Positions 24,366-36,686 of a DNA stretch of 37,313 nucleotides are shown one piece after another. The first letter of the stretch is position 1. Every line of letters starts with the position of its first letter. This DNA is from Pseudomonadota bacterium (GTDB lineage: Bacteria; Pseudomonadota; Alphaproteobacteria; Acetobacterales; Acetobacteraceae), in assembly GCA_021780035.1 (NCBI GenBank), contig JAJXZO010000003.1:1-37313 (forward strand), read 5' to 3'. The notes beneath the pieces were generated by a model. It did not search any database. It was not told where the DNA came from and saw only the letters and a list, made by a program, of their open reading frames with translations. Both the position numbers and the translations under genes were made by a program.

Positions 24366-24418
24366 AGCACTACCCGAAGGTCTTGGGCGACAGTCGGCCG
24401 AATTCAGGGAGTCGCCCA

Positions 24419-24955
24419 ATGAAGGCCCCTTCGTCCCAGCGTTCGTCCGAGCTGGATCAGGATTTCGTCAACGGCGTTCTCGTCAGACACGACGGGAGAC
24501 CCGGCGCGCTGCTGGCGATCCTGCAGGAAATCCAACAGAACAACCCGCGGAAATACTTGCCGCGGGAGACGCTCTCCTACATCGCGGAGAGGGCGAACAT
24601 TCCGCTTTCGAGAGTATATAGCGTCGTCACGTTCTACGCGCTGTTCAATCTCGAGCCGCAGGGCCGCCACACCGTTTGCGTCTGCCGCGGCACCGCCTGC
24701 CACACCAGGGGCTCGCGCGACCTGCTCGACAATCTGGTGATGAACCTCGGCCTGAAGTCCGGCGAGGAAGGCGAGCGCGACCAGCTTGGCCTCACAACGC
24801 CCGACGGCAACCTCACCGTCCGCACCGTCGCCTGCTTCGGCCAGTGCGCGCTGGCGCCGGTCGTCGAGGTCGACCACGTGATTTTCGGTCACATGAACGA
24901 GCAGCGCATGCAGCGTGAAATGAAGACCCTGGAGAAGCGGGAACAGCAGTCATGA
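24419..24955 (+). CDS. hoxE: NAD-reducing bidirectional [NiFe] hydrogenase, HoxE subunit (NuoE-like, 2Fe-2S)
   Basis: LPRETLSYIAERANIPLSRVYSVVTFYALFNLEPQGRHTVCVCRGTACHTRGSRDLLDN...TVACFGQCALAPVVEVD. Confidence 0.93.
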   Translation: MKAPSSQRSSELDQDFVNGVLVRHDGRPGALLAILQEIQQNNPRKYLPRETLSYIAERANIPLSRVYSVVTFYALFNLEPQGRHTVCVCRGTACHTRGSRDLLDNLVMNLGLKSGEEGERDQLGLTTPDGNLTVRTVACFGQCALAPVVEVDHVIFGHMNEQRMQREMKTLEKREQQS

Positions 24956-27900
24956 CGCGCATTCGCGACCTCAGCACTTTCAACGCGGTGCGCACGACCG
25001 GCCTTGGCAAGCTGCGGCCGCATCATGTCCGCATCGCCGTCGGCATGGGCACCTGCGGTACCGGCAACGGCGCCGAGGCCGTCTATTCCGCCTTCGCCGA
25101 CGCCATCTTTCAGCGTGGCCTTGATGCCACCCTGGTTTCCACCGGCTGCTTCGGCTTCTGCGCCGAGGAGCCGCTGGTCAACCTCTACAGCCCGGGCCAG
25201 CCGCTGGTCATCCTGCACCGCGTCCGCTCGGAGCAGGTGAACCAGATCCTCGACGGCCTTCTGGAAAAGAACATCCCCGAGGCGCTGGCACTCTGCAAAA
25301 TCGAGCAGTGGGACCACATCACCGCGCAGATCGACTACGGCGCTGGCTACCCGATGGTTCCGCTGTGGAACGAGGTGCCCTTCTTCCAGAACCAGAAGAA
25401 GATCGTGCTGCGCAACTGCGGCATCATCAACCCCGACGACATCGAGGAATACATCGCCGTCGGCGGCTACCAGTCGCTCTACAAGGTGCTGATCGACCGT
25501 ATGCCGGAACTGGTGTTGGAGCAGCTGAAGGCCTCGAAGCTGCGCGGCCGTGGCGGCGCCGGCTTCTCCACCGGCATGAAGCTCGAGTTCCTGTTCAAGT
25601 CGAACGCCGCGCAGAAGTACCTCATCTGCAACGCCGACGAGGGCGACCCCGGCGCCTACATGAACCGCAACGAGATCGAGGGTGACCCGCACTCGCTGCT
25701 CGAAGGCATGGCCATCGGCGGCTATATCACCGGCGCTACCAAAGGCATCATCTACGTTCGCGCCGAATACCCGCTCGCGGTCAACCGGCTGAACAAGGCC
25801 ATCGCCCAGGCGCGCGAATACGGCCTGCTCGGCCAGGACATCCTTGGCCGAGGCTTCGATTTCGATATCGAACTGGTCGAGGGCGCCGGCGCCTTCGTCT
25901 GCGGCGAGGAGACGGCGCTGATTGCCTCCCTCGAAGGCCGCGCCGGCCGTCCGCGCCCGCGCCCGCCGTTCCCGGCCGAGAAGGGCCTTTGGGGCTGCCC
26001 GACCGATATCAACAACGTCGAGACCTGGTACAACCTCGCTCCCATCGTCGCCCGCGGTCCCGCGTGGTTCACCGAGACCGGCAGCACCACCTCCGCCGGC
26101 ACCAAGGTGATTTCGCTGGTCGGTAAGGTGCGCAACACCGGCCTGGTGGAAATGCCGCTCGGCACACCGCTCAGCCAGTACGTCTACGACGCCGGCGGCG
26201 GCGCGGCCGATGGCCACAGCATCAAGGCGGTGCAGACCGGCGGACCTTCCGGTGGCTGCATCCCGCACGACCTGTTCGACACGCCGGTCGACTACGAATC
26301 GCTCGCCAAGCTCGGCTCGATCATGGGCTCGGGCGGCATGGTGGTGATGGACGACGACAACTGCATGGTCGACGTCGCCCGCTACTTCGTCGAATTCACC
26401 CGCTCGGAATCCTGCGGCAAATGCACGCCTTGCCGTGTGGGTCTCGACAAGGCGCTGCGCACGCTCACGCGCATCACCAAGGGCGAAGGCCGCGAGGAGG
26501 ATCTGGTCGAACTCGAAGAGCTCGGCCGCATGATCCGCGACACGTCGCTCTGCGGCCTCGGCCAGTCGGCGCCGAACCCGGTGCTCACGGCGCTCCGTCA
26601 CTTCCGCCACGAGTTCGAGGACCACATCCGCGCCAAACGCTGCCACGCCGGCGTGTGCCTGGAACTCGCGCTGTCGCCTTGCGAAAACTCGTGCCCGCTG
26701 CACATGAACATCCCGCGCTTCCTGCAACTCTACAAGGAAGGGCGGCTCGCCGACGCGTTCGAATCCGTCATCATGGACAACCCCCTGCCGGCCTCCACCG
26801 GGCGCGTCTGCCAGCACCCGTGCGACAACCGCTGCCGCCGCCAGGGCATCGATGAATCGGTGAACATGCGGGAAGTGCACCGCGTCATCGCCGATGCCGT
26901 GCTGCTCTCCGACCAGTTCGAGGAGGCGGTCGGCCGCGTGCTGGCGAAGAAGCGTAAGGCTACGGGCAAGAAGGTCGCCGTGGTCGGCGCCGGTCCCACC
27001 GGGCTCACCGCCGCCTTCTACCTCGCCCTGCTCGGGCACGAGGTGATGGTGTTCGAAGCCCACGCCGACGCGGGCGGCATGCTGCGCTACGCGCTGCCCG
27101 AATACCGGCTGCCCAACTCCGTTCTCGACCGCGAGATCGAGATCATCCGCCGCCTCGGCGTGAAGTTCACGTTCAACACCGCCATCGGCGAGGATATCAC
27201 GCTGAACGACCTGGGCAGCCAGTACAACGCCGTGTTCCTCTCCATCGGCACCTGGAAGGAATCGCAGCTCTACCTCCCTGGCAACGAACTCGCCGGCGTG
27301 TTCGTGGCGCTTCCCTTCCTCGAGGCAGAGGCGAAGGCCGAGCCGATGCAACTCGGCAACCACGTCGTCGTCATCGGCGGCGGCAACGCCGCCATCGACT
27401 GCGCCCGCACCGTGGTGCGCCGCGGTTCGGCCGCCACCGTCATCTACCGGCGCGACCGCGGCGACATGCCGGCCATCCCCGAGGAGGTCGACGCCGCCGA
27501 GAAGGAAGGCGTGCGCTTCCGCTTCCTCGCCACGCCGCATCGCATCATCGGCGAGCGCGGCGGCGTGAAGGCGATCGAGGTGACGAAGACCCGCCTCGGC
27601 GAGTTCGACACCTCCGGCCGCCGCCGCCCCGTCGCCACCGGCGAGGTGCAGGTGGTCAGCTGCACCAACGTCATTCTGGCGGTGGGCGAGGACGTGGACC
27701 GCGACTTCTACCGCTCCGCCGGCCTCACCATCACCGAGAGCGGCATGCTGCAGGTGGACCGCTACTCCCTGGAATCCAGCCGCGAGAACTTCTACGCCGG
27801 CGGCGACCTGATCACCGGCGCCTCCAACGTCTCCAATGCCATGAGCTACGGCAAGGACGCGGCACGGAACATCGACGCCCGCCTCACCGGGGACTCCCAC

Positions 27901-28122
27901 TTCGACGGGCTGATCCCGACGTTCCAGTACGACCAGACCGCGCCGGCGGAACCCAGCAAGTCGCCCAGGCATCACGCGCACGATCTCCCCGTGGCGATCC
28001 GCGCCAAGAGCTTCGAGGAGGCAACGACGGCGCTGAAGCCGGAGGAGGCATTCGAGGAGGCCTGCCGCTGCCTGCGCTGCGACATCCGCGACTCCGCCCA
28101 CTTCGCCGTCAGCCATCGGTAA
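24952..28122 (+). CDS. hoxF: HoxF/NuoF-type diaphorase subunit fused to a C-terminal GltD/NfnB-like FAD-NAD(P)H oxidoreductase (1056 aa)
   Basis: N-terminal Trx-like region; FMN/NADH domain SKLRGRGGAGFSTGMKLEF...ADEGDPGAYMNR; 4Fe-4S SESCGKCTPCRVG; then CENSCPLHMNIPRFLQLYKEGRLADAFESVIMDNPLPASTGRVCQHPCDNRCRR, FAD motif VAVVGAGPTGLTAAFYLALLGHEVMVFEA, NADP motif VVVIGGGNAAIDCARTVVRRGSAATVIYRRDRGDMPA, C-terminal CRCLRCD. Confidence 0.93.
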   Translation: MTRIRDLSTFNAVRTTGLGKLRPHHVRIAVGMGTCGTGNGAEAVYSAFADAIFQRGLDATLVSTGCFGFCAEEPLVNLYSPGQPLVILHRVRSEQVNQILDGLLEKNIPEALALCKIEQWDHITAQIDYGAGYPMVPLWNEVPFFQNQKKIVLRNCGIINPDDIEEYIAVGGYQSLYKVLIDRMPELVLEQLKASKLRGRGGAGFSTGMKLEFLFKSNAAQKYLICNADEGDPGAYMNRNEIEGDPHSLLEGMAIGGYITGATKGIIYVRAEYPLAVNRLNKAIAQAREYGLLGQDILGRGFDFDIELVEGAGAFVCGEETALIASLEGRAGRPRPRPPFPAEKGLWGCPTDINNVETWYNLAPIVARGPAWFTETGSTTSAGTKVISLVGKVRNTGLVEMPLGTPLSQYVYDAGGGAADGHSIKAVQTGGPSGGCIPHDLFDTPVDYESLAKLGSIMGSGGMVVMDDDNCMVDVARYFVEFTRSESCGKCTPCRVGLDKALRTLTRITKGEGREEDLVELEELGRMIRDTSLCGLGQSAPNPVLTALRHFRHEFEDHIRAKRCHAGVCLELALSPCENSCPLHMNIPRFLQLYKEGRLADAFESVIMDNPLPASTGRVCQHPCDNRCRRQGIDESVNMREVHRVIADAVLLSDQFEEAVGRVLAKKRKATGKKVAVVGAGPTGLTAAFYLALLGHEVMVFEAHADAGGMLRYALPEYRLPNSVLDREIEIIRRLGVKFTFNTAIGEDITLNDLGSQYNAVFLSIGTWKESQLYLPGNELAGVFVALPFLEAEAKAEPMQLGNHVVVIGGGNAAIDCARTVVRRGSAATVIYRRDRGDMPAIPEEVDAAEKEGVRFRFLATPHRIIGERGGVKAIEVTKTRLGEFDTSGRRRPVATGEVQVVSCTNVILAVGEDVDRDFYRSAGLTITESGMLQVDRYSLESSRENFYAGGDLITGASNVSNAMSYGKDAARNIDARLTGDSHFDGLIPTFQYDQTAPAEPSKSPRHHAHDLPVAIRAKSFEEATTALKPEEAFEEACRCLRCDIRDSAHFAVSHR

Positions 28123-28134
28123 GGAACCACCGCC

Positions 28135-28845
28135 GTGTCTGAACAAATCACGATGCGCATCGACGGTCAGGTCTGCACCGCCAAGGAAGGCCAGACCATC
28201 ATCGAGGTGGCCCAGGCGAACGGGCGCTACATCCCCTCGCTCTGCCACATGCCGGGACTGAGCGCCGACGGCTGCTGCCGCCTGTGCCTGGTGGAGGTCA
28301 CCGGCCTCAACCGCCTGCTGCCGGCCTGCACCACGCCGGTCCGCAACGGCATGTCGGTGGTGACCGACTCGGAACGCCTGAACCAGAACCGGCTGATGGC
28401 CCTGGAACTGCTGTTCAGCGAGCGCAACCACATCTGCGCCGTCTGCGTCTCCAACGGCCACTGCGAGCTGCAGGGACTGGCGCAGCAGCTCGGTCTCACC
28501 CACATCCACTTCACCTACAACTATCCGAAGCTCCCGGTGGATGTCTCGCATCCCCGCTTCGTGCTCGACCACAACCGCTGCATTCTCTGCGCGCGCTGTG
28601 TGCGCGTGTGCGACGAGGTGGAGGGCGCGCACGTGTGGGACATCGCGGGCCGCGGCATCAACTCGATGCTCGTCTCCGACCTGCAGCGGCCCTGGGGCGA
28701 ATCGCAGTCCTGCACCAGTTGCGGCAAGTGCGTGCAAGTGTGCCCGACCGGCGCGCTGGTGGAGAAGGGGCACGCGGTCGAGGAAATGACCAAGCGCAAC
28801 GCCGTCGTCACGCAACTGGCCATCAAGCGGGGCACACACCCATGA
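28135..28845 (+). CDS. hoxU: Hox hydrogenase HoxU subunit (NuoG N-terminal-like ferredoxin domains); GTG start
   Basis: [51 protein letters not shown]...[16 protein letters not shown]...[17 protein letters not shown]. Confidence 0.95.
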
Positions 28846-29372
28846 AAAAGGCGCGCGTGGCCACGATGTGGCTCGATGCCTGTTCCGGCTGTCACATGTC
28901 CTTCCTCGACATCGACGAGGCGTTGCTCGACGTCGCGCCGAAGATCGATCTGGTCTACGGGCCGCTCGTCGATGCACAGGAATTTCCCGACGACGTGGAT
29001 GTCTGCATCATCGAAGGCGCCATCGGCAATCAGGACGACGTGGAGCGGGTGAAGCGTGCCCGTGAACGCTCGCGCATCCTGGTGGCGCTCGGCGACTGCG
29101 CCACCACTGGTAACGTTCCTTCCATGCGCAACCCGATCCCGGTGAAGACCATTCTCGAGCGGGTCTATATCGAGGGTGCGGAGGGGCAGAAGGTCATTCC
29201 CACTCAGGGCGTGCCGGCGCTGATGCGCCACGCGCGACCGCTGCACGAACTGGTGAAGATCGACCTCCACGTGCCCGGCTGCCCGCCGCCGGCGCCCGCC
29301 ATCCTCTACGTCGTCAGCGAACTGCTGGCCGGTCGCATTCCCGATCTGAAATCGAAGGTGCGCTTTGGCTGA
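28842..29372 (+). CDS. hoxY: [NiFe] hydrogenase small subunit HoxY
   Basis: [24 protein letters not shown]...[18 protein letters not shown]...[22 protein letters not shown]. Confidence 0.96.
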
Positions 29373-29382
29373 GGAACAAGTC

Positions 29383-30801
29383 ATGCGGACAATCACCATT
29401 GACCCGGTTTCGCGCATCGAGGGCCACGCCAAGATCTCGATCCACCTCGACGCCGACGGCCACGTCGCCGACACCGTCTTCCACGTCACCCAGCTGCGCG
29501 GCTTCGAGAAGTTCGCGGAGGGACGGCCGTTCTACGAGATGCCGGCGATCACCGCGCGCATCTGCGGCATCTGCCCGGTAAGCCACCTGCTCGCCTCGGT
29601 GAAGGCGTGCGACGCCATCATGAGCGTGCGCATCCCTCCGGCGGCGGCGAAGCTGCGCGAGCTGCTGCACTGCGCGCAGATCGTGCAGTCGCACGCGTTG
29701 AGCTTCTTCCATCTCTCCTCCCCCGACCTGCTGCTCGGCTTCGACTCCGACCCGGCGAAACGCAACGTGCTCGGCGTCATCGAGGCCTTCCCCGACCTCG
29801 CGCGCGACGGCATCGCGCTGCGCAAGTTCGGCCAGCAGGCGATCGAGGGGCTGGCGAAGGAGCGCGTGCACCCGTCGTGGACGGTTCCCGGCGGCGTCAA
29901 CGCTCCCCTCGACCCGGCCGTGCGCGACCGCATCCGCGCGGGCCTGCCGCAGGCGAAGGAAATCGCTCTCCGCACCATCGCCTTCTTCAAGGGCGTGGTG
30001 GACCAGTTCAAGGAGGAGATCGCCAACTTCGGCAACACGCACACGATGCACGCGGGCCTCGTGGATGCCGAGGGCAACGTGCAGTTCTACGACGGCAACG
30101 TCCGCTTCATCGACGCCGAGGGCAAGGTGGTGGTGGACCGCATGGAGTCCGCCGACTACTCCCGGTACATCGGCGAGGCGGCGCTGCCCTACTCCTACCT
30201 GAAGGCGCCGTTCTTCAAGCCGCGCGGATTCCCCGAGGGCATCTACCGCGTCGGCCCGCTCGGACGCATGAACGTCGCCACCCGCTGCGGCACGCCCGCC
30301 GCCGACGCCGAGTTCGCGGAATACCACCAGCGCTACGGCAAGGTGGTGCATTCTTCCTTCCATTTCCACTACGCGCGGCTGATCGAGCTGCTCTACGGCG
30401 TGGAACGGATGGAGGCGCTGCTCGAAGACGAGTCCATTCTCGACCGGCACGTTCGCGCCCATGCCGGGGTGAACGCGCTGGAAGGCGTGGGCATCATCGA
30501 GGCGCCCCGCGGCACGCTGATCCACCACTACAAGGTGAACGAGGAGGGCGCGATCACCTGGGCCAACCTAATCGTCGCCACCGGCAACAACAACCTCGCC
30601 ATCGGCCGCAGCGTCGACCAAGTCGCGAAGCACTTCATCCACGGCAAGAAGATCAAGGAAGGTATGCTGAACCGCGTCGCCGCGGTGGTGCGGGCCTACG
30701 ACCCCTGCCTCAGCTGCTCCACCCACGCCGCCGACCAGTATCCGCTGGAGATCAACCTGGTGGACGCCGACGGCACGCGTCTGCAGACGCTGCGGAGCTG
30801 A
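29383..30801 (+). CDS. hoxH: [NiFe] hydrogenase large subunit HoxH (group 3d type)
   Basis: [40 protein letters not shown]-terminal DPCLSCSTHAADQYPLEINLVDADGTRLQTLRS with extension beyond the DPCxxCxxH motif. Alternate TTG start 29365. Confidence 0.97.
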   Translation: MRTITIDPVSRIEGHAKISIHLDADGHVADTVFHVTQLRGFEKFAEGRPFYEMPAITARICGICPVSHLLASVKACDAIMSVRIPPAAAKLRELLHCAQIVQSHALSFFHLSSPDLLLGFDSDPAKRNVLGVIEAFPDLARDGIALRKFGQQAIEGLAKERVHPSWTVPGGVNAPLDPAVRDRIRAGLPQAKEIALRTIAFFKGVVDQFKEEIANFGNTHTMHAGLVDAEGNVQFYDGNVRFIDAEGKVVVDRMESADYSRYIGEAALPYSYLKAPFFKPRGFPEGIYRVGPLGRMNVATRCGTPAADAEFAEYHQRYGKVVHSSFHFHYARLIELLYGVERMEALLEDESILDRHVRAHAGVNALEGVGIIEAPRGTLIHHYKVNEEGAITWANLIVATGNNNLAIGRSVDQVAKHFIHGKKIKEGMLNRVAAVVRAYDPCLSCSTHAADQYPLEINLVDADGTRLQTLRS

Positions 30802-30873: not shown

Positions 30874-31119
30874 TCACCTCGGCGCGCCGAGCCGCTTTTG
30901 CACCGCCCAGCGCGGGCGCAGGCCGGCGATCGGCAGCCGCGGCAGCACCATCACCAGGATCGCCGGAGAGACGAGCAGCCACATCGTCCCGACTGTGACG
31001 TAGAGCGGCGCCGCGAACCCCTTCAGGCGCCACATGCCGGCATCGGCGACGCGACCGGTGGCCGGATCGGGGAAAGACGAACCCACCGCCTGTCTCTCCG
31101 CATGCGCCACCTCCCTCAC
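30874..31119 (-). CDS. Small hypothetical membrane protein (81 aa), translationally coupled to the protease gene
   Basis: GTG start overlaps the upstream protease stop (GTGA); predicted TM PLYVTVGTMWLLVSPAILVMVLPRLP. Confidence 0.5.
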   Translation of the reverse strand: MREVAHAERQAVGSSFPDPATGRVADAGMWRLKGFAAPLYVTVGTMWLLVSPAILVMVLPRLPIAGLRPRWAVQKRLGAPR

Positions 31120-31583
31120 CCGTCTTCGCCTGCCCTGTATTCCGCGAGCAGGCGGCGCACCGTGGCGACGGCCCGCGGCAGCGCGTTCGCCACCGCCGGG
31201 GATAGTCCTTCGCCGATCTCCATCGCGTCCGCACCCACGGCGACGAGCACGGTCCGGGCCGCGCTGCCGTAGAGCGTCACCGCCAGCGTGAGCAGCGCCC
31301 CGGGGTCGAGATGGTGCACGATCCCCGAGGCCGGCAACGCGGTGGCATGTTGGGCGGATGTGCGAATGCTGCCCGCCGGGGCGTCGGCCACGGCATCGAC
31401 GAACACGGCGAAGGCGGCGCCGGCGAGGCTCTCCGCCAGTTCCGGCGTCAGTTGCTGGCAGAACACCACCGTCACGTCGGGGGCGTCGGCCTCGGCAGCG
31501 ATGGCCTGCGCCACGGCCTGCCCGATGCCGTCGTCACCGCGGAGCGGATTGCCGTAGCCGATGACGAGAGCCTTGCCGCCCAC
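31116..31583 (-). CDS. hoxW: [NiFe] hydrogenase maturation protease (HoxW-like)
   Basis: From GTG 31583: MGGKALVIGYGNPLRGDDGIGQAVAQAI...AVFVDAVADAPAGSI...HHLDPGALLTLAVTLYG. Adjacent to hoxH, divergent from the group 3b operon. Confidence 0.88.
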   Translation of the reverse strand: MGGKALVIGYGNPLRGDDGIGQAVAQAIAAEADAPDVTVVFCQQLTPELAESLAGAAFAVFVDAVADAPAGSIRTSAQHATALPASGIVHHLDPGALLTLAVTLYGSAARTVLVAVGADAMEIGEGLSPAVANALPRAVATVRRLLAEYRAGEDG

Positions 31584-31676
31584 CCCGGATTCCCTGCGCG
31601 AAGCCCTGCGTGCCGATGTACACGCAAAGTTTGACCCGCCAAATCGGCAGGTTTCCACTACAAAATTGAAACCTCA

Positions 31677-31753: not shown

Positions 31754-32902
31754 ATGACCACCATCCGTGCCCTGCCCCCCGGCAGTGCGGTGCTCAGGCT
31801 CGACGGCCTGCAGCAGCTCATCGCGGCACTGGCGGTCCGCGGCTACGAGATCGTCGGCCCCGTCGAGCGCGACGGGGCGATCCTTTACGACCGCATCGCC
31901 TCCACCGCCGACCTCCCGGCCGGACGAACCGACCGGCAGGAGCCTGGCTCCTACCGGCTGGAGCCCCGGGCCGACGGCGCCCTGTTCGCCTATGCCGTGG
32001 GTCCGCACTCCTGGAAGCGCTACCTGCACAGGCCGAACGAGACGCTGTTCAAAAGCCGCCGCGTCGGCGAGGAACTGGTGTTCGATCCGCCGGCCGGACC
32101 ACCGCCGCGCACCGCCTTCCTCGGCGTGCGCCCCTGCGAACTGGTGGCGATCTTCGTGCAGGACCGCGTGCTGATGGAGGGCCACTACGTCAACACCGGC
32201 TACAAGGCGCGCCGCGAGGCCACCTTCCTGGTGGTGGTGAACTGCGGCAGCCCCGCGGCCACCTGCTTCTGCACCTCGATGCACACCGGCCCTCGGGCCA
32301 CCGGCGGATTCGACATCGCGCTGACGGAATTGCTCGCCGACGGCCGGCAGGAGTTCCTGGCCGAACCCGGCACCGACGGCGGCGCCGCCCTGCTCGCCTA
32401 CCTGCCCACCCGCCCCGCCACCGAGGCCGATTGGCAGGCGGCGCTTGCCGTCACCGCGCAGGCGGTGGCGTCGATCGGCCGACGCATGCCGCCGGGGAAC
32501 GAAATCAAGGCGGCGCTGCAATCGAACCCGGAACACGCGCGCTGGGACGACGTGGCCAGGCGCTGCCTCGCTTGCGCCAACTGCACGCTGGTCTGCCCCA
32601 CCTGTTTCTGCACCACGGTGGAAGACCGCAGCGATCTCGACGGGCAGGGAGCGGCGCGCGTGCGGCGCTGGGACTCCTGCTTCACCCGCGACTTCTCATA
32701 CGTTCACGGCGGGGCGGTGCGCACGCAAACGCGATCACGCTTCCGCCAGTGGATGACACATAAGCTGGCACACTGGTGGGATCAGTTCGGCACCTCGGGC
32801 TGCGTCGGCTGCGGCCGTTGCATTGCCTGGTGTCCGGCCGGCATTGATATCACCGTGGAAGCGGCTGCGTTCACAGAGGGGCAAAATCATGGAATCACTT
32901 GA
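31754..32902 (+). CDS. hydB: Group 3b [NiFe] hydrogenase (sulfhydrogenase) beta subunit, 4Fe-4S protein
   Basis: [23 protein letters not shown]...; clusters [16 protein letters not shown] and [16 protein letters not shown]. Confidence 0.92.
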
Positions 32903-33356
32903 GCGGATCATTCTCGAACAGACCCTGTTCGCCGGGCTCGACCCGGACATCGCGCAACTCGTGACGGGCTGCGCGCGCAACCTGCATTTCGAGCCGGGCG
33001 CCTACCTGTTCCACGAAGGCGAGGATGCCAAGGAGTTCTACCTCATCCGCCACGGCGAGGTCGTGCTCGAGATCACCGCGCCGGGCCGGCGCACGCTCGT
33101 CCTCAGCACCATCAAGGATGGGGAGGTCGTGGGCGCATCGTGGCTCATTCCCCCCTACCGCTGGAACAGCGACGCCCGCGCCCGCGGTCATGTGCGTGCG
33201 CTCGGCTTCAACGCCGAGTGCCTGCGCCGCAAGTGCGACGAGGACGCGCGCGTCGGCTACGAGATGACCAAGAGGTTCATGCCGATGATGGTCAACCGGT
33301 TGCAGGCAGCCTACCTGCAACTGCTCGACGTCTACGGCCGGCCGGAAGGCAGTTGA
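32889..33356 (+). CDS. Stand-alone cyclic nucleotide-binding-fold protein, no HTH (HoxI-like)
   Basis: 155 aa; LEQTLFAGLDPDIAQLVTGCARNLHFEPGAYLFHEGEDAKEFYLIRHGEVVLEITAPGRRTLVLSTIKDGEVVGASWLIPPYRWNSDARARG; overlaps hydB end. Confidence 0.88.
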   Translation: MESLERIILEQTLFAGLDPDIAQLVTGCARNLHFEPGAYLFHEGEDAKEFYLIRHGEVVLEITAPGRRTLVLSTIKDGEVVGASWLIPPYRWNSDARARGHVRALGFNAECLRRKCDEDARVGYEMTKRFMPMMVNRLQAAYLQLLDVYGRPEGS

Positions 33357-33358
33357 AC

Positions 33359-34180
33359 GTGGACCCATATGTACCGCTACCCTACCGGGTGCTCGCCACC
33401 CGCAAGGATACGCCCGATGTGGTGACTCTCGATCTCGCACCGGTCGGCGACTCCATCCCGGAGCCGCAGCCGGGGCAGTTCACCATGCTCTACGTATTCG
33501 GCGTGGGCGAAGCGCCGATCAGCGTCAGCGGCGCGCCAGTGGACGGCAACCCGCTGGTGCAGACGGTGCGCGCCGTCGGCGCCGTCAGCAACGCCATCAC
33601 CCGGCTTCGTCCTGGCCAGGAGATCGGCGTGCGCGGCCCCTACGGCACCGCCTGGCCGGTGGAGAGCGCCACCGGCCACGACATCCTGTTCGTCGCCGGC
33701 GGCCTCGGCCTCGCGCCGCTGCGCCCGGCGATCCGCCATGTCCTCTCCAACCGCGACCGCTACGGCCGCGTCTCCCTGCTCTATGGCACCCGCGGCCCGG
33801 AAGACATGCTCTACCGCGACGAGCTGGCCGAGTGGCGGCGCATGCTCGACGTCGAGATCGAGGTCACCGTCGATCACGCCGACCGCACCTGGCGCGGCAC
33901 TGTCGGCGTCGTCACTAAGTTGATCCCGCGCGCCGATTTCGACCCCGAGCGCACCACGGCGATGGTCTGCGGGCCGGAAGTGATGATGCGCTTCTCGGTC
34001 CTCGCGCTGCAGGTCGCGGGGCTGCCGTTCGAGCGCACCTTCCTCTCGCTGGAGCGGGCGATGAAATGCGGCCTGGGGCTCTGCGGCCGCTGCCAGTTCG
34101 GCGCCCATTTCGTGTGCCAGGAAGGCGCGGTGATCAGCTACGACCGCATCGCCCACATCTTCACCGTGCGGGAGATCTGA
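33359..34180 (+). CDS. hydG: Group 3b hydrogenase gamma subunit, FAD/NAD(P)-binding with 2Fe-2S; GTG start
   Basis: [26 protein letters not shown]...[21 protein letters not shown]...[18 protein letters not shown]...CGPEVMMRF...[19 protein letters not shown]. Confidence 0.94.
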
Positions 34181-34181
34181 G

Positions 34182-34949
34182 ATGTCCCGGCCCAGGCTTG
34201 CCGTCGTCAAGTTCGCCTCCTGCGACGGGTGCCAGTTGTCCCTGCTTGACTGCGAGGACGAACTGATCGCCGTCGCCGGTGCGGTGGAAATCGCCAATTT
34301 CCCCGAGGCATCGCGGGCGGTGCAGCCCGGCCCCTACGACGTCACCCTGGTGGAAGGCAGCATCACCACGCCGCACGACGTGGCGCGCATTCGCGAGATC
34401 CGCGCCGATTCCGGGCTGCTGGTCGCCATCGGCGCCTGCGCCACCGCCGGCGGCATCCAGGCGCTGCGCAACTTCGCCGACGCGGGGGAATACGTCAGCG
34501 CGGTCTACGCGCATCCCGAATACATCCGCACGCTGGCCACTTCGACGCCGATCAGCGACCACGTGAAGGTCGATTACGAACTGCGCGGCTGCCCCGTGAG
34601 CAAGCGGCAGTTGCTGGAACTCGTCTCCGCCCTGCTCGCCGAGCGCCGCCCCGAGTTGCCGGTGCACAGCGTCTGCGTCGAGTGCAAGCTCGCCGGCAAG
34701 GTGTGCGTGATGGTGGCGCACGGCACGCCGTGCCTCGGCCCGGTCACGCAGTGCGGCTGCGCCGCGCTCTGCCCCGGCTTCGCCCGCGGCTGCTACGGCT
34801 GCTTCGGCCCGGCCGAGACCACCAACACCACGGCGCTTGCCGCGCGGTGGCAGGCTCTCGGAACCACCCCGCGCGACGTACAGCGCGCATTCCGAACCTT
34901 CAACGCCGGCGCCGAACCCTTCCGCCGGGAGTCCGAATCCCATGGGTGA
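34182..34949 (+). CDS. hydD: Group 3b [NiFe] hydrogenase small (delta) subunit
   Basis: [23 protein letters not shown]...[17 protein letters not shown]...[19 protein letters not shown]...APYG-type C-terminal cysteines [28 protein letters not shown]. Confidence 0.95.
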
Positions 34950-36234
34950 AACACGACGGCTCCGCGTCGACATGCTCGCCCGCGTCGAGGGCGAGGGCGC
35001 GGTCGATATCGAGATCGACGACGGCCGGGTCACCTGCGCGCGGCTTTCCATCTTCGAGCCACCCAGGCTGTTCGAGGCGTTTCTGCGCGGCCGCGCCGCC
35101 GAAGAGGCACCCGACATCACCGCGCGCATCTGCGGCATCTGCCCCGTCGCCTACCAGATGAGTTCGGTGAACGCCATCGAGAGCATCTACGGGTTGGACC
35201 CGGGACCGGAGATCCGTGCGCTGCGCCGCCTGCTCTACTGCGGCGAATATATCGAGAGCCACGCCCTGCACATGGTGCTGCTGCACGCGCCGGATTTCCT
35301 CGGCTTCGAGGACGGCCTCGCCATGGCCGCCGAGCACGGGGAGATCGTCAAGCGCGCGCTGTTCGTCAAGAAGACCGGCAACACGCTGATGAGCGTGGTC
35401 GCCGGGCGCGAGGTGCACCCGATCAACGTCCGCGTCGGCGGCTTCTACCGCGCGCCCCGGCACGCCGAACTGGCGGCGATGCAGCCGGCCATCGCCCGCG
35501 CCCGCGACGACATGGTGGCCATCCTTCGCTGGGCCGGGAACTTCACCTACCCCGATCTGGAACAGGACTGGGAACTGGTGGCGCTGCGACATCCCGCCGA
35601 ATATCCGCTGATCGACGGGCGCATCGCCTCCACCGGCGGCATCGACATCCCCTTCACCGCCTTCGACGAGGAATTCGAGGAGGTCCACCACCCGCACTCC
35701 ACCTCGCTCTACGGCCGGGTGAAAAGCCGCGGCACCTATCTCACCGGCCCGCTCGCCCGCTACGCGCTGAATTACGAGTGCCTGCCGCCGCACATCCAGG
35801 CGCTGGCGAAGGAGGTCGGCCTCGGCCCCGTCTGCCGTAACCCTTACAAAAGCATCCTGGTGCGCGGCATCGAGACCGTCTACGCCTGCGAGGAGGCGCT
35901 GCGCATCATCGGCGCCTACCGCGAGCCCACCCCTGCCTCGGTGCCCTACACCCCGTGCGCGGGCGTGGGCGCCTGGGCAACGGAAGCGCCGCGCGGGATG
36001 CTCTGGCACCGCTACGAGGTGGACGGCGAAGGCACCATCCTGAACGCCCGCATCGTGCCGCCCACGGCGCAGAACCAGGCCGCGATCGACGCCGATGTGC
36101 TCGCCATGGCCAACCGCCACGTAAAGGAATCCGACACCGCGCTACAGCTTGCGTGCGAGACGGCGGTGCGCAACCACGACCCCTGCATCTCCTGCTCCTG
36201 CCACTTTCTCAAGCTCAACGTCACCCGCAGGTGA
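34942..36234 (+). CDS. hydA: Group 3b [NiFe] hydrogenase large (alpha) subunit
   Basis: [30 protein letters not shown]...[21 protein letters not shown]...C-terminal [19 protein letters not shown]. Confidence 0.96.
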
Positions 36235-36686
36235 CGGCGCTCGTCGTCGGCTTCGGAAACCCCGACCGCGGCGACGATGCCGCCGGGCCGCTGGTGGCGC
36301 GGCTGCTCGTGGATCGCATCGCGGCGCGCGTCGTGGAGCGGCACGGTGATGCGTTGGCGCTGCTCGACGAGTGGCGCGAAGCCGAGGCGCTGGTGCTGAT
36401 CGACGCCGCCGCGCCGATGGGCGAGCCGGGGCGCATCCACGAGATCGACCCTTGCACGGACGAGCTGCCGCGGCAGTTCGCCTTCGGCTCCACTCACGCC
36501 TTCGGTCTGGCCGAGGCCATCGCCCTGAGCCACCGCCTGGGCTCCCTGCCCGCGCGCACCAAGGTGTACGCCATCGAGGGGGAAAACTTCGCCCCCGGCG
36601 CCGCGCTTTCGCCCGCGGTCGCTGCCGCCGTGGACCGCCTCGCCGCCCGTGGCGGGGCGCTGCTGCCGCCCGCCGCCGAGGAATAA
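36231..36686 (+). CDS. Hydrogenase maturation protease (HycI/HoxW superfamily); GTG start overlapping hydA stop
   Basis: [26 protein letters not shown]...EALVLIDAAAPMGEPGRIHEID...STHAFGLAEAIALSHRLGSLPARTKVYAIEGENFAPGAALSPAV. Confidence 0.93.
   Translation: MTALVVGFGNPDRGDDAAGPLVARLLVDRIAARVVERHGDALALLDEWREAEALVLIDAAAPMGEPGRIHEIDPCTDELPRQFAFGSTHAFGLAEAIALSHRLGSLPARTKVYAIEGENFAPGAALSPAVAAAVDRLAARGGALLPPAAEE

Follow-up and report, generated by a model that had tools for sequence, protein, structure and literature searches.

A HydB–GltD fusion protein in a Hox-type [NiFe] hydrogenase operon: a candidate bifurcating enzyme with NADP(H) in place of ferredoxin

Overall organization of the fusion protein

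The protein described here is encoded on the forward strand of contig JAJXZO010000003.1 (assembly GCA_021780035.1, Acetobacteraceae), within a stretch of 37,313 nucleotides referred to below as the window; the source genome comprises 2.67 Mb in 253 contigs, at 90% completeness. It joins a HoxF-like subunit to a GltD/NfnB-like flavoprotein and is followed by hoxU, hoxY, and hoxH. The predicted metal ligands and the phylogeny of its N-terminal half place that half with the bifurcating HydB proteins of the Bfu family, outside canonical HoxF. The predicted Fer4_20–GltD module is not appended to a NuoF-like protein; it replaces the ferredoxin-binding domain that carries clusters B3 and B4 in HydB, at the same place. 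We tentatively propose that the enzyme is a ferredoxin-independent bifurcating hydrogenase delivering the electrons of H2 to NAD+ and NADP+, in which the Bfu core would use GltD as its low-potential exit and the [4Fe-4S] cluster proximal to flavin adenine dinucleotide (FAD) would be ligated by a histidine. The parts of the fusion are as follows (residue numbers refer to the fusion protein).

24952–28122, + strand: hoxF/bfuB–gltD fusion, 1056 aa
25024–25266, + strand: HydB-type [2Fe-2S] (B5) domain in the N-terminal ~120 aa, core about residues 25–105, with C35, C66, and C70 invariant
25528–26037, + strand: Complex1_51K domain (residues 193–362, Pfam), binding flavin mononucleotide (FMN) and NADH
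26362–26658, + strand: Bfu "B2" site, C471, T509, H558, C564, and C569, aligned with C438/C476/H525/C531/C536 of 7t2r_B
26371–26625, + strand: NADH_4Fe-4S domain (residues 474–558) with B1 cluster C488/C491/C494/C534
26644–26901, + strand: Fer4_20 domain (residues 565–650) with C577, C581, C620, C624, and C628, starting at the B3/B4 position of BfuB
26878–26880, + strand: His643, predicted by alignment to be a ligand of the FAD-proximal [4Fe-4S] cluster
26968–27849, + strand: GltD/NfnB FAD–NADP(H) domain (residues 673–966) with R719 and Y832-R833-R834
28069–28080, + strand: C-terminal CLRC (C1040, C1043), the last cysteines of the Fer4_20 clusters

The initial annotation read this region as a single uninterrupted open reading frame (ORF) with a HoxF/NuoF half and a GltD/NfnB-like half, and both the frame and the order of the domains hold. 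There is no internal stop in the 1056 codons, and the fusion is intact in independent assemblies, which rules out a frameshift or a missed stop between the halves. An assembly chimera is likewise rejected, as the same uninterrupted ORF recurs across many assemblies; chance or assembly error as the source of the fusion is excluded. Four near relatives carry it at 74–82% identity, two of them near full-length (78% and 74%) and two cut by contig ends. Complete copies in named genomes number 27, at 68–78% identity and including both near full-length relatives; together with the window copy they form the set of 28 complete fusions in which the invariance of cofactor ligands was evaluated. Pfam assigns Complex1_51K (193–362), SLBB (387–435), NADH_4Fe-4S (474–558), Fer4_20 (565–650), and Pyr_redox_2 (673–966). 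Among the NCBIfam models shown, none scores above its own cut-off for the window protein, the nearest being nuoF_fam and PRK12771, and identical models are matched by all 28 complete fusions. NF009410, of the PRK12771 family, covers residues 527–1043, with the window protein scoring under its cut-off. The AlphaFold model of the fusion is confident, with a mean predicted local distance difference test score of 87.9 and a predicted template modelling score of 0.78.

Both halves are under purifying selection, as the ratios of nonsynonymous to synonymous substitution rates (dN/dS) are 0.11–0.44 for the C-terminal half and 0.07–0.33 for the N-terminal half. The possibility that the GltD half is a decaying passenger was rejected on the former values and on the retention of every ligand.

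The N-terminal half and the B2 site

When residues 27–572 are compared with solved structures, the best match is the HydB subunit of the [NiFe] enzyme from Acetomicrobium mobile (638 bits), with NfnB (BfuB) of Thermococcus sibiricus at 611 bits and HydB of Acetobacterium woodii at 599 bits; the best score for a NuoF is 368 bits (Thermus). A fold search agrees in placing this half nearest to bifurcating HydB. The Pfam equivalents of the FMN (IPR011538), SLBB (IPR019554), and NADH_4Fe-4S (IPR019575) domains that characterize Bfu proteins are all found above cut-off.

In the Bfu core, the B2 ligands are C438, C476 (often Thr), H525, C531, and C536 in the numbering of A. mobile HydB; the histidine is present in all but 8 of 1558 BfuB sequences and missing from non-bifurcating homologues (PMC9304861). 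The corresponding C471, H558, C564, and C569, including the diagnostic histidine, are invariant in 28/28 complete fusions; at position 509, 27 of them have Thr and one has Ser. The same four residues are missing from all three HoxF controls (Acaryochloris, Cupriavidus necator, and Lichenicola). In more recent structures this subunit is interpreted as containing a zinc atom (StnB, PMC10482914), so B2 may hold zinc or iron. The description of this half as HoxF/NuoF in the initial annotation thus stands for its HoxF-like domains and fails for canonical HoxF, bifurcating HydB being nearer by both the B2 ligands and the bit scores. A canonical HoxF with an appended domain was rejected on the B2 ligands and on the tree of the N-terminal half, which groups the fusion with HydB-type proteins.

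Domain replacement at the junction

The C-terminal ferredoxin domain that defines BfuB carries clusters B3 and B4, the route of ferredoxin reduction (PMC9304861). Beyond the part matched by the fusion, HydB of A. mobile continues for 58 residues to form this domain. In the fusion, the Fer4_20 cysteines start at C577, seven residues past the last B2 cysteine (C569), and lead to GltD. A Pfam search of the whole protein found no ferredoxin-type domain, and in place of the C-terminal 4Fe-4S domain expected of a Bfu protein (IPR017896) it found Fer4_20 and Pyr_redox_2.

The loss of B3/B4, thought essential to Bfu bifurcation, bears on the strongest competing explanation, in which the enzyme is a dual-cofactor hydrogenase that does not bifurcate. 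GltD would act as an additional diaphorase, with a single chain of clusters bringing H2, NAD(H), and NADP(H) into equilibrium, and the enzyme would double as a soluble transhydrogenase. Such a role has precedents, since [FeFe] hydrogenases of HydDB group A2 have a GltD module as their only partner, a GltD of PRK12771 type stands beside [FeFe] HydA both in the genome of the window and in Pelobacter (locus L066), and the GltD of StnC has lost bifurcation (PMC10482914). However, the B2 site is invariant in 28/28 fusions and absent from canonical HoxF, and a plain diaphorase has no known need of it; simple equilibration of NADH with NADPH would also be wasteful. On balance we regard this explanation as rather unlikely, while giving it more weight than the other two alternatives discussed below.

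The transhydrogenases Stn and Nfn-Bfu carry their GltD module on the A subunit, and their BfuB retains B3/B4 (PMC10482914). GltD is therefore a known module that here differs in placement, subunit, and partner. These enzymes also provide the model for an alternative that we consider improbable, namely that GltD docks on HoxU for exchange at mid potential, as in Stn, with free ferredoxin elsewhere as the low-potential exit, making this an H2/NADPH : NAD+ : ferredoxin enzyme. GltD does feed the clusters of the A subunit in Stn and Nfn-Bfu, and cyanobacterial HoxEFU reacts with ferredoxin (PMC7363133), though the cyanobacterial-type HoxF that we examined lacks B3/B4. Against such docking, the fusion places GltD on the opposite subunit, exactly where the ferredoxin domain would be, and keeps no domain of that type.

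The GltD half and His643

Seven cysteines (577, 581, 620, 624, 628, 1040, and 1043) and H643 are invariant in 28/28 complete fusions and are the predicted ligands of two [4Fe-4S] clusters; the "CRCLRC" tail, previously recorded as a motif, supplies two of the seven. Also invariant in 28/28 are R719, the arginine of the FAD site, and Y832-R833-R834, the NADPH-type YRR motif; the assignment of this half to GltD/NfnB stands.

Position 643 aligns with Lys170 of StnC and with the Glu of NfnL. Lys occupies it in Stn-type proteins, in [FeFe]-linked GltDs, and in the WOR-1 and Zixibacteria fusions described below, and His in every hydrogenase-linked fusion and in the PVC copy. We infer that His643 ligates the FAD-proximal [4Fe-4S] cluster. 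Bifurcation at FAD, as in Nfn, is disfavoured, since His643 occupies the place of the Glu that ligates the proximal cluster in bifurcating NfnB, and the hox operon includes no NfnA-like gene.

The hydrogenase operon and its neighbourhood

The genes surrounding the fusion are the following.

24419–24955, + strand: hoxE, BfuC-like [2Fe-2S] subunit (Pfam 2Fe-2S_thioredx, 1.4e-38); first ATG at 24419, ORF opening at 24383
28135–28845, + strand: hoxU, BfuA-like [2Fe-2S] and [4Fe-4S] subunit (NCBIfam PRK07569, above cut-off)
28842–29372, + strand: hoxY, [NiFe] small subunit (Pfam Oxidored_q6, 3.8e-30)
29383–30801, + strand: hoxH, [NiFe] large subunit with RICGIC and DPCLSCSTH motifs; ATG at 29383, ORF opening at 29365
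31116–31658, − strand: hydrogenase maturation protease, probably that of HoxH (TIGR00072, above cut-off)

The Pfam and NCBIfam matches of these neighbours agree with the Hox operon recognized earlier. The best NCBIfam match of HoxE is PRK07571, under its cut-off. The nearest solved chains are 7t2r_C, HydC of the A. mobile bifurcating [NiFe] hydrogenase, for HoxE and 7t2r_A for HoxU; that of HoxH is also found among the A. mobile chains (7t2r). The operon thus holds both the BfuC-type [2Fe-2S] subunit and the BfuA-type Fe-S subunit of a Bfu enzyme. It also has the gene set of a group 3d HoxEFUYH hydrogenase, with both [NiFe] motifs intact and HoxH in the 3d/cyanobacterial branch, and lacks the canonical NuoF-like HoxF of that group.

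Directly behind the hox operon (31754–36686) lies a group 3b (sulfhydrogenase-like) hydrogenase, with hydB, hydG, hydD, hydA, and an apparent second maturation protease. The 3b cluster is found in the same place in two Acetobacteraceae relatives (L017 and L020), and upstream of the fusion in Chloroflexi loci L028 and L030; in L028 (4888–6864), HydB (Fer4_22) and HydG (NAD_binding_1) are joined as one 658-aa ORF. In Acidobacteriales locus L045 (1200–6147), a further [NiFe] large subunit precedes the hox operon, beside a FAD/Fer4 protein that is possibly HdrA-like, of group 3c type. Elsewhere in the genome of the window, an [FeFe] hydrogenase of group A2 type adjoins a PRK12771 GltD and a HydF-like GTPase, a pair unusual for an acetobacterium and the second GltD-linked hydrogenase of one cell.

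A gene for a protein binding cyclic nucleotide monophosphates (cNMP), weakly HoxI-like, is located at 32880–33356, between hydB and hydG of the 3b operon. It bears on a third alternative, in which the GltD module would be an NADPH-dependent reactivation device, feeding low-potential electrons to the oxidised [NiFe] site with no turnover of an acceptor. The soluble hydrogenase of Cupriavidus is reportedly activated by NADPH specifically (Burgdorf 2005, cited in PMC7363133), and it has a cNMP-binding gene near hoxH, which we take to be HoxI, with a proposed role in that reactivation. The gene in the 3b operon is the only one of its kind in the window, with 24% identity over 102 aa to the Cupriavidus gene. 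For such a device, a complete GltD carrying FAD and two clusters would be large, and most hosts are metagenome-assembled genomes (MAGs) from peat and sediment, where exposure to O2 is unproven. Reactivation would also leave the retained B2 site and the swap of the ferredoxin domain unexplained, and we give this alternative little credence.

Distribution and phylogeny

Searching named genomes for the junction region returned more than 40 loci with full coverage of the junction, at 69–86% identity. The hosts belong to Acetobacteraceae, Ancalomicrobiaceae, Acidobacteriota (Bryobacterales and Solibacteraceae), Chloroflexota, and a few other groups, and are mostly MAGs from peat, fen, and soil. In 36 loci hoxU, hoxY, and hoxH lie downstream of the fusion and, with few exceptions, hoxE lies upstream; most of the others are cut by contig ends. 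The order of the operon is fixed across phyla. Among near relatives, the fusion and this HoxH occur together in 4/4 genomes and are both missing in 3/3. The fusion is rare in the order to which the window belongs (the window genome and one relative among 397 genomes), and in a sample of 398 genomes of the phylum the full fusion was found only in the genome of the window.

Trees of the collected loci, a step proposed in the initial annotation, recover the hydrogenase-linked fusions as one clade with the N-terminal half (100/100), HoxH (100/99), and the GltD half (100/100). The three trees are broadly congruent, which points to an operon that is transmitted as a whole and has passed from one phylum to another. 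A single origin of all BfuB–GltD fusions is not supported, as the copies from WOR-1 (L061) and Zixibacteria (L062) are placed apart from the main clade, though both have long branches. In L061 (8429–14230), the gene after the divergent fusion (44% identity) encodes a molybdopterin protein that resembles formate dehydrogenase and has a HoxU-like N terminus, so this type of fusion also occurs together with a formate site. In L062 (7528–13940), the fusion shares its cluster with a HoxU-like protein and with one similar to the glutamate synthase FMN domain. Two Kiritimatiellae/PVC contigs (L055 and L056) have the fusion and hoxU, with hoxY or hoxH not found downstream; L056 has there instead a MaoC-like protein and, as read by eye, an iron-type alcohol dehydrogenase. 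A scan of viral contigs for carriage of the fusion by phages or mobile elements found nothing. Two records deposited as phages from human faeces (MT836960 and MT839894) encode GltD/hydrogenase-type proteins with ~40% identity to the junction and are probably bacterial contamination.

Comparison with known systems

The closest counterpart is the bifurcating [NiFe] hydrogenase HydABCSL of A. mobile (7t2r), the nearest solved relative of HoxE, the N-terminal half, HoxU, and HoxH. It shares the B1, B2, and B5 sites and a [NiFe] site feeding a HydBC core, whereas its HydB ends in the B3/B4 ferredoxin domain without GltD, and its HydA comprises 692 aa compared to 236 aa in HoxU. Stn/Nfn-Bfu transhydrogenases (Sporomusa, 8oh5; Caldicellulosiruptor, 9bov; T. 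sibiricus, 9n5u) also combine a HydBC core with GltD and Fer4_20 clusters. They differ in carrying GltD on the A subunit, in keeping B3/B4 in the StnB-type subunit, in having Lys at the proximal-cluster position, and in lacking a [NiFe] site. Cyanobacterial-type HoxEFUYH of group 3d (Acaryochloris) has the same gene set and a HoxH that is 55% identical and sister in the tree, but its 554-aa HoxF lacks both GltD and the equivalents of C471, H558, C564, and C569. In the [FeFe] group A2 pairs (PRK12771 family), GltD with an NADH_4Fe-4S domain is similarly the electron partner of a soluble hydrogenase, although that hydrogenase is [FeFe], there is no FMN domain, and Lys takes the place of His643. 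NfnAB (NfnL/NfnB of Pyrococcus, 5jca) shares the GltD-fold FAD/NADP(H) domain and two [4Fe-4S] clusters, while its NfnB bifurcates at FAD with a Glu-ligated proximal cluster. The enzyme lacks one defining feature of each family: B3/B4 for Bfu, canonical HoxF for HoxEFUYH, GltD on the A subunit for Stn, and the Glu ligand for Nfn. In its predicted working it is nearest to a Bfu hydrogenase whose third partner has been exchanged. No published description of the fusion was found in the full-text literature searched, subscription papers being outside its scope.

Proposed mechanism

The predicted sites comprise HoxYH, the HoxU relay, FMN/NAD with B1, B2, and B5, the [2Fe-2S] cluster of HoxE, two Fer4_20 clusters, FAD, and NADP(H). 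The full set, as assigned from motifs and alignments for H2, NAD(H), NADP(H), FMN, FAD, and the relay clusters, is conserved across phyla. We envisage a cytoplasmic [NiFe] hydrogenase, HoxE–(BfuB–GltD)–HoxU–HoxY–HoxH, that would bifurcate the electrons of H2 reversibly to NAD+ at FMN and to NADP+ at FAD, a proposal whose chances we judge to be evenly balanced. Electrons from H2 would pass from HoxH through HoxY and HoxU to FMN. One pair would be transferred as a hydride from FMN to NAD+, and the other would enter a B2/HoxE branch, in which the mobile [2Fe-2S] cluster of HoxE would pass electrons to the Fer4_20 clusters, FAD, and finally NADP+. The net reaction would be 2 H2 + NAD+ + NADP+ <-> NADH + NADPH + 2 H+, reversible, with NADPH taking the place of ferredoxin. 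Because the Glu ligand of Nfn is replaced by His, the GltD flavin would be an ordinary two-to-one-electron switch and not the site of bifurcation. With potentials of −280 mV for NAD(H), −370 mV (assumed) for NADP(H), and −500 mV for ferredoxin, the mean acceptor potential is about −325 mV, and the calculated balance lies near 1e-3 atm H2, compared with 0.15 atm with ferredoxin. At lower H2, the enzyme would work in confurcation, releasing H2 from NADH and NADPH.

Several points weigh against bifurcation to NADP+. The preference for NADP is read from a single feature, the GltD-type YRR motif, and the path by which electrons would leave B2/HoxE for the Fer4_20 clusters is a prediction from sequence. 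With the Bfu-defining B3/B4 gone, bifurcation itself may have been lost as well. The host also has PntB homologues and hence no obvious need for another source of NADPH.

Implications

The fusion bears on the open question of how FMN-based bifurcation works and what sets the low-potential acceptor. With the proposed bifurcation site kept and the ferredoxin exit exchanged for an NADP(H) flavoprotein, it is a natural experiment in which the Bfu model is testable. Generic annotation as HoxF/NuoF may hide it in Acidobacteriota, Chloroflexota, and Acetobacteraceae of peat and soil. If bifurcation to NADP+ is true, the hosts would obtain NADPH from H2 at an H2 pressure ~150-fold lower than a ferredoxin-linked enzyme would allow or, alternatively, would vent NADH and NADPH as H2 in peat, and the enzyme would represent a new type of acceptor for the Bfu mechanism, spread over soil phyla.

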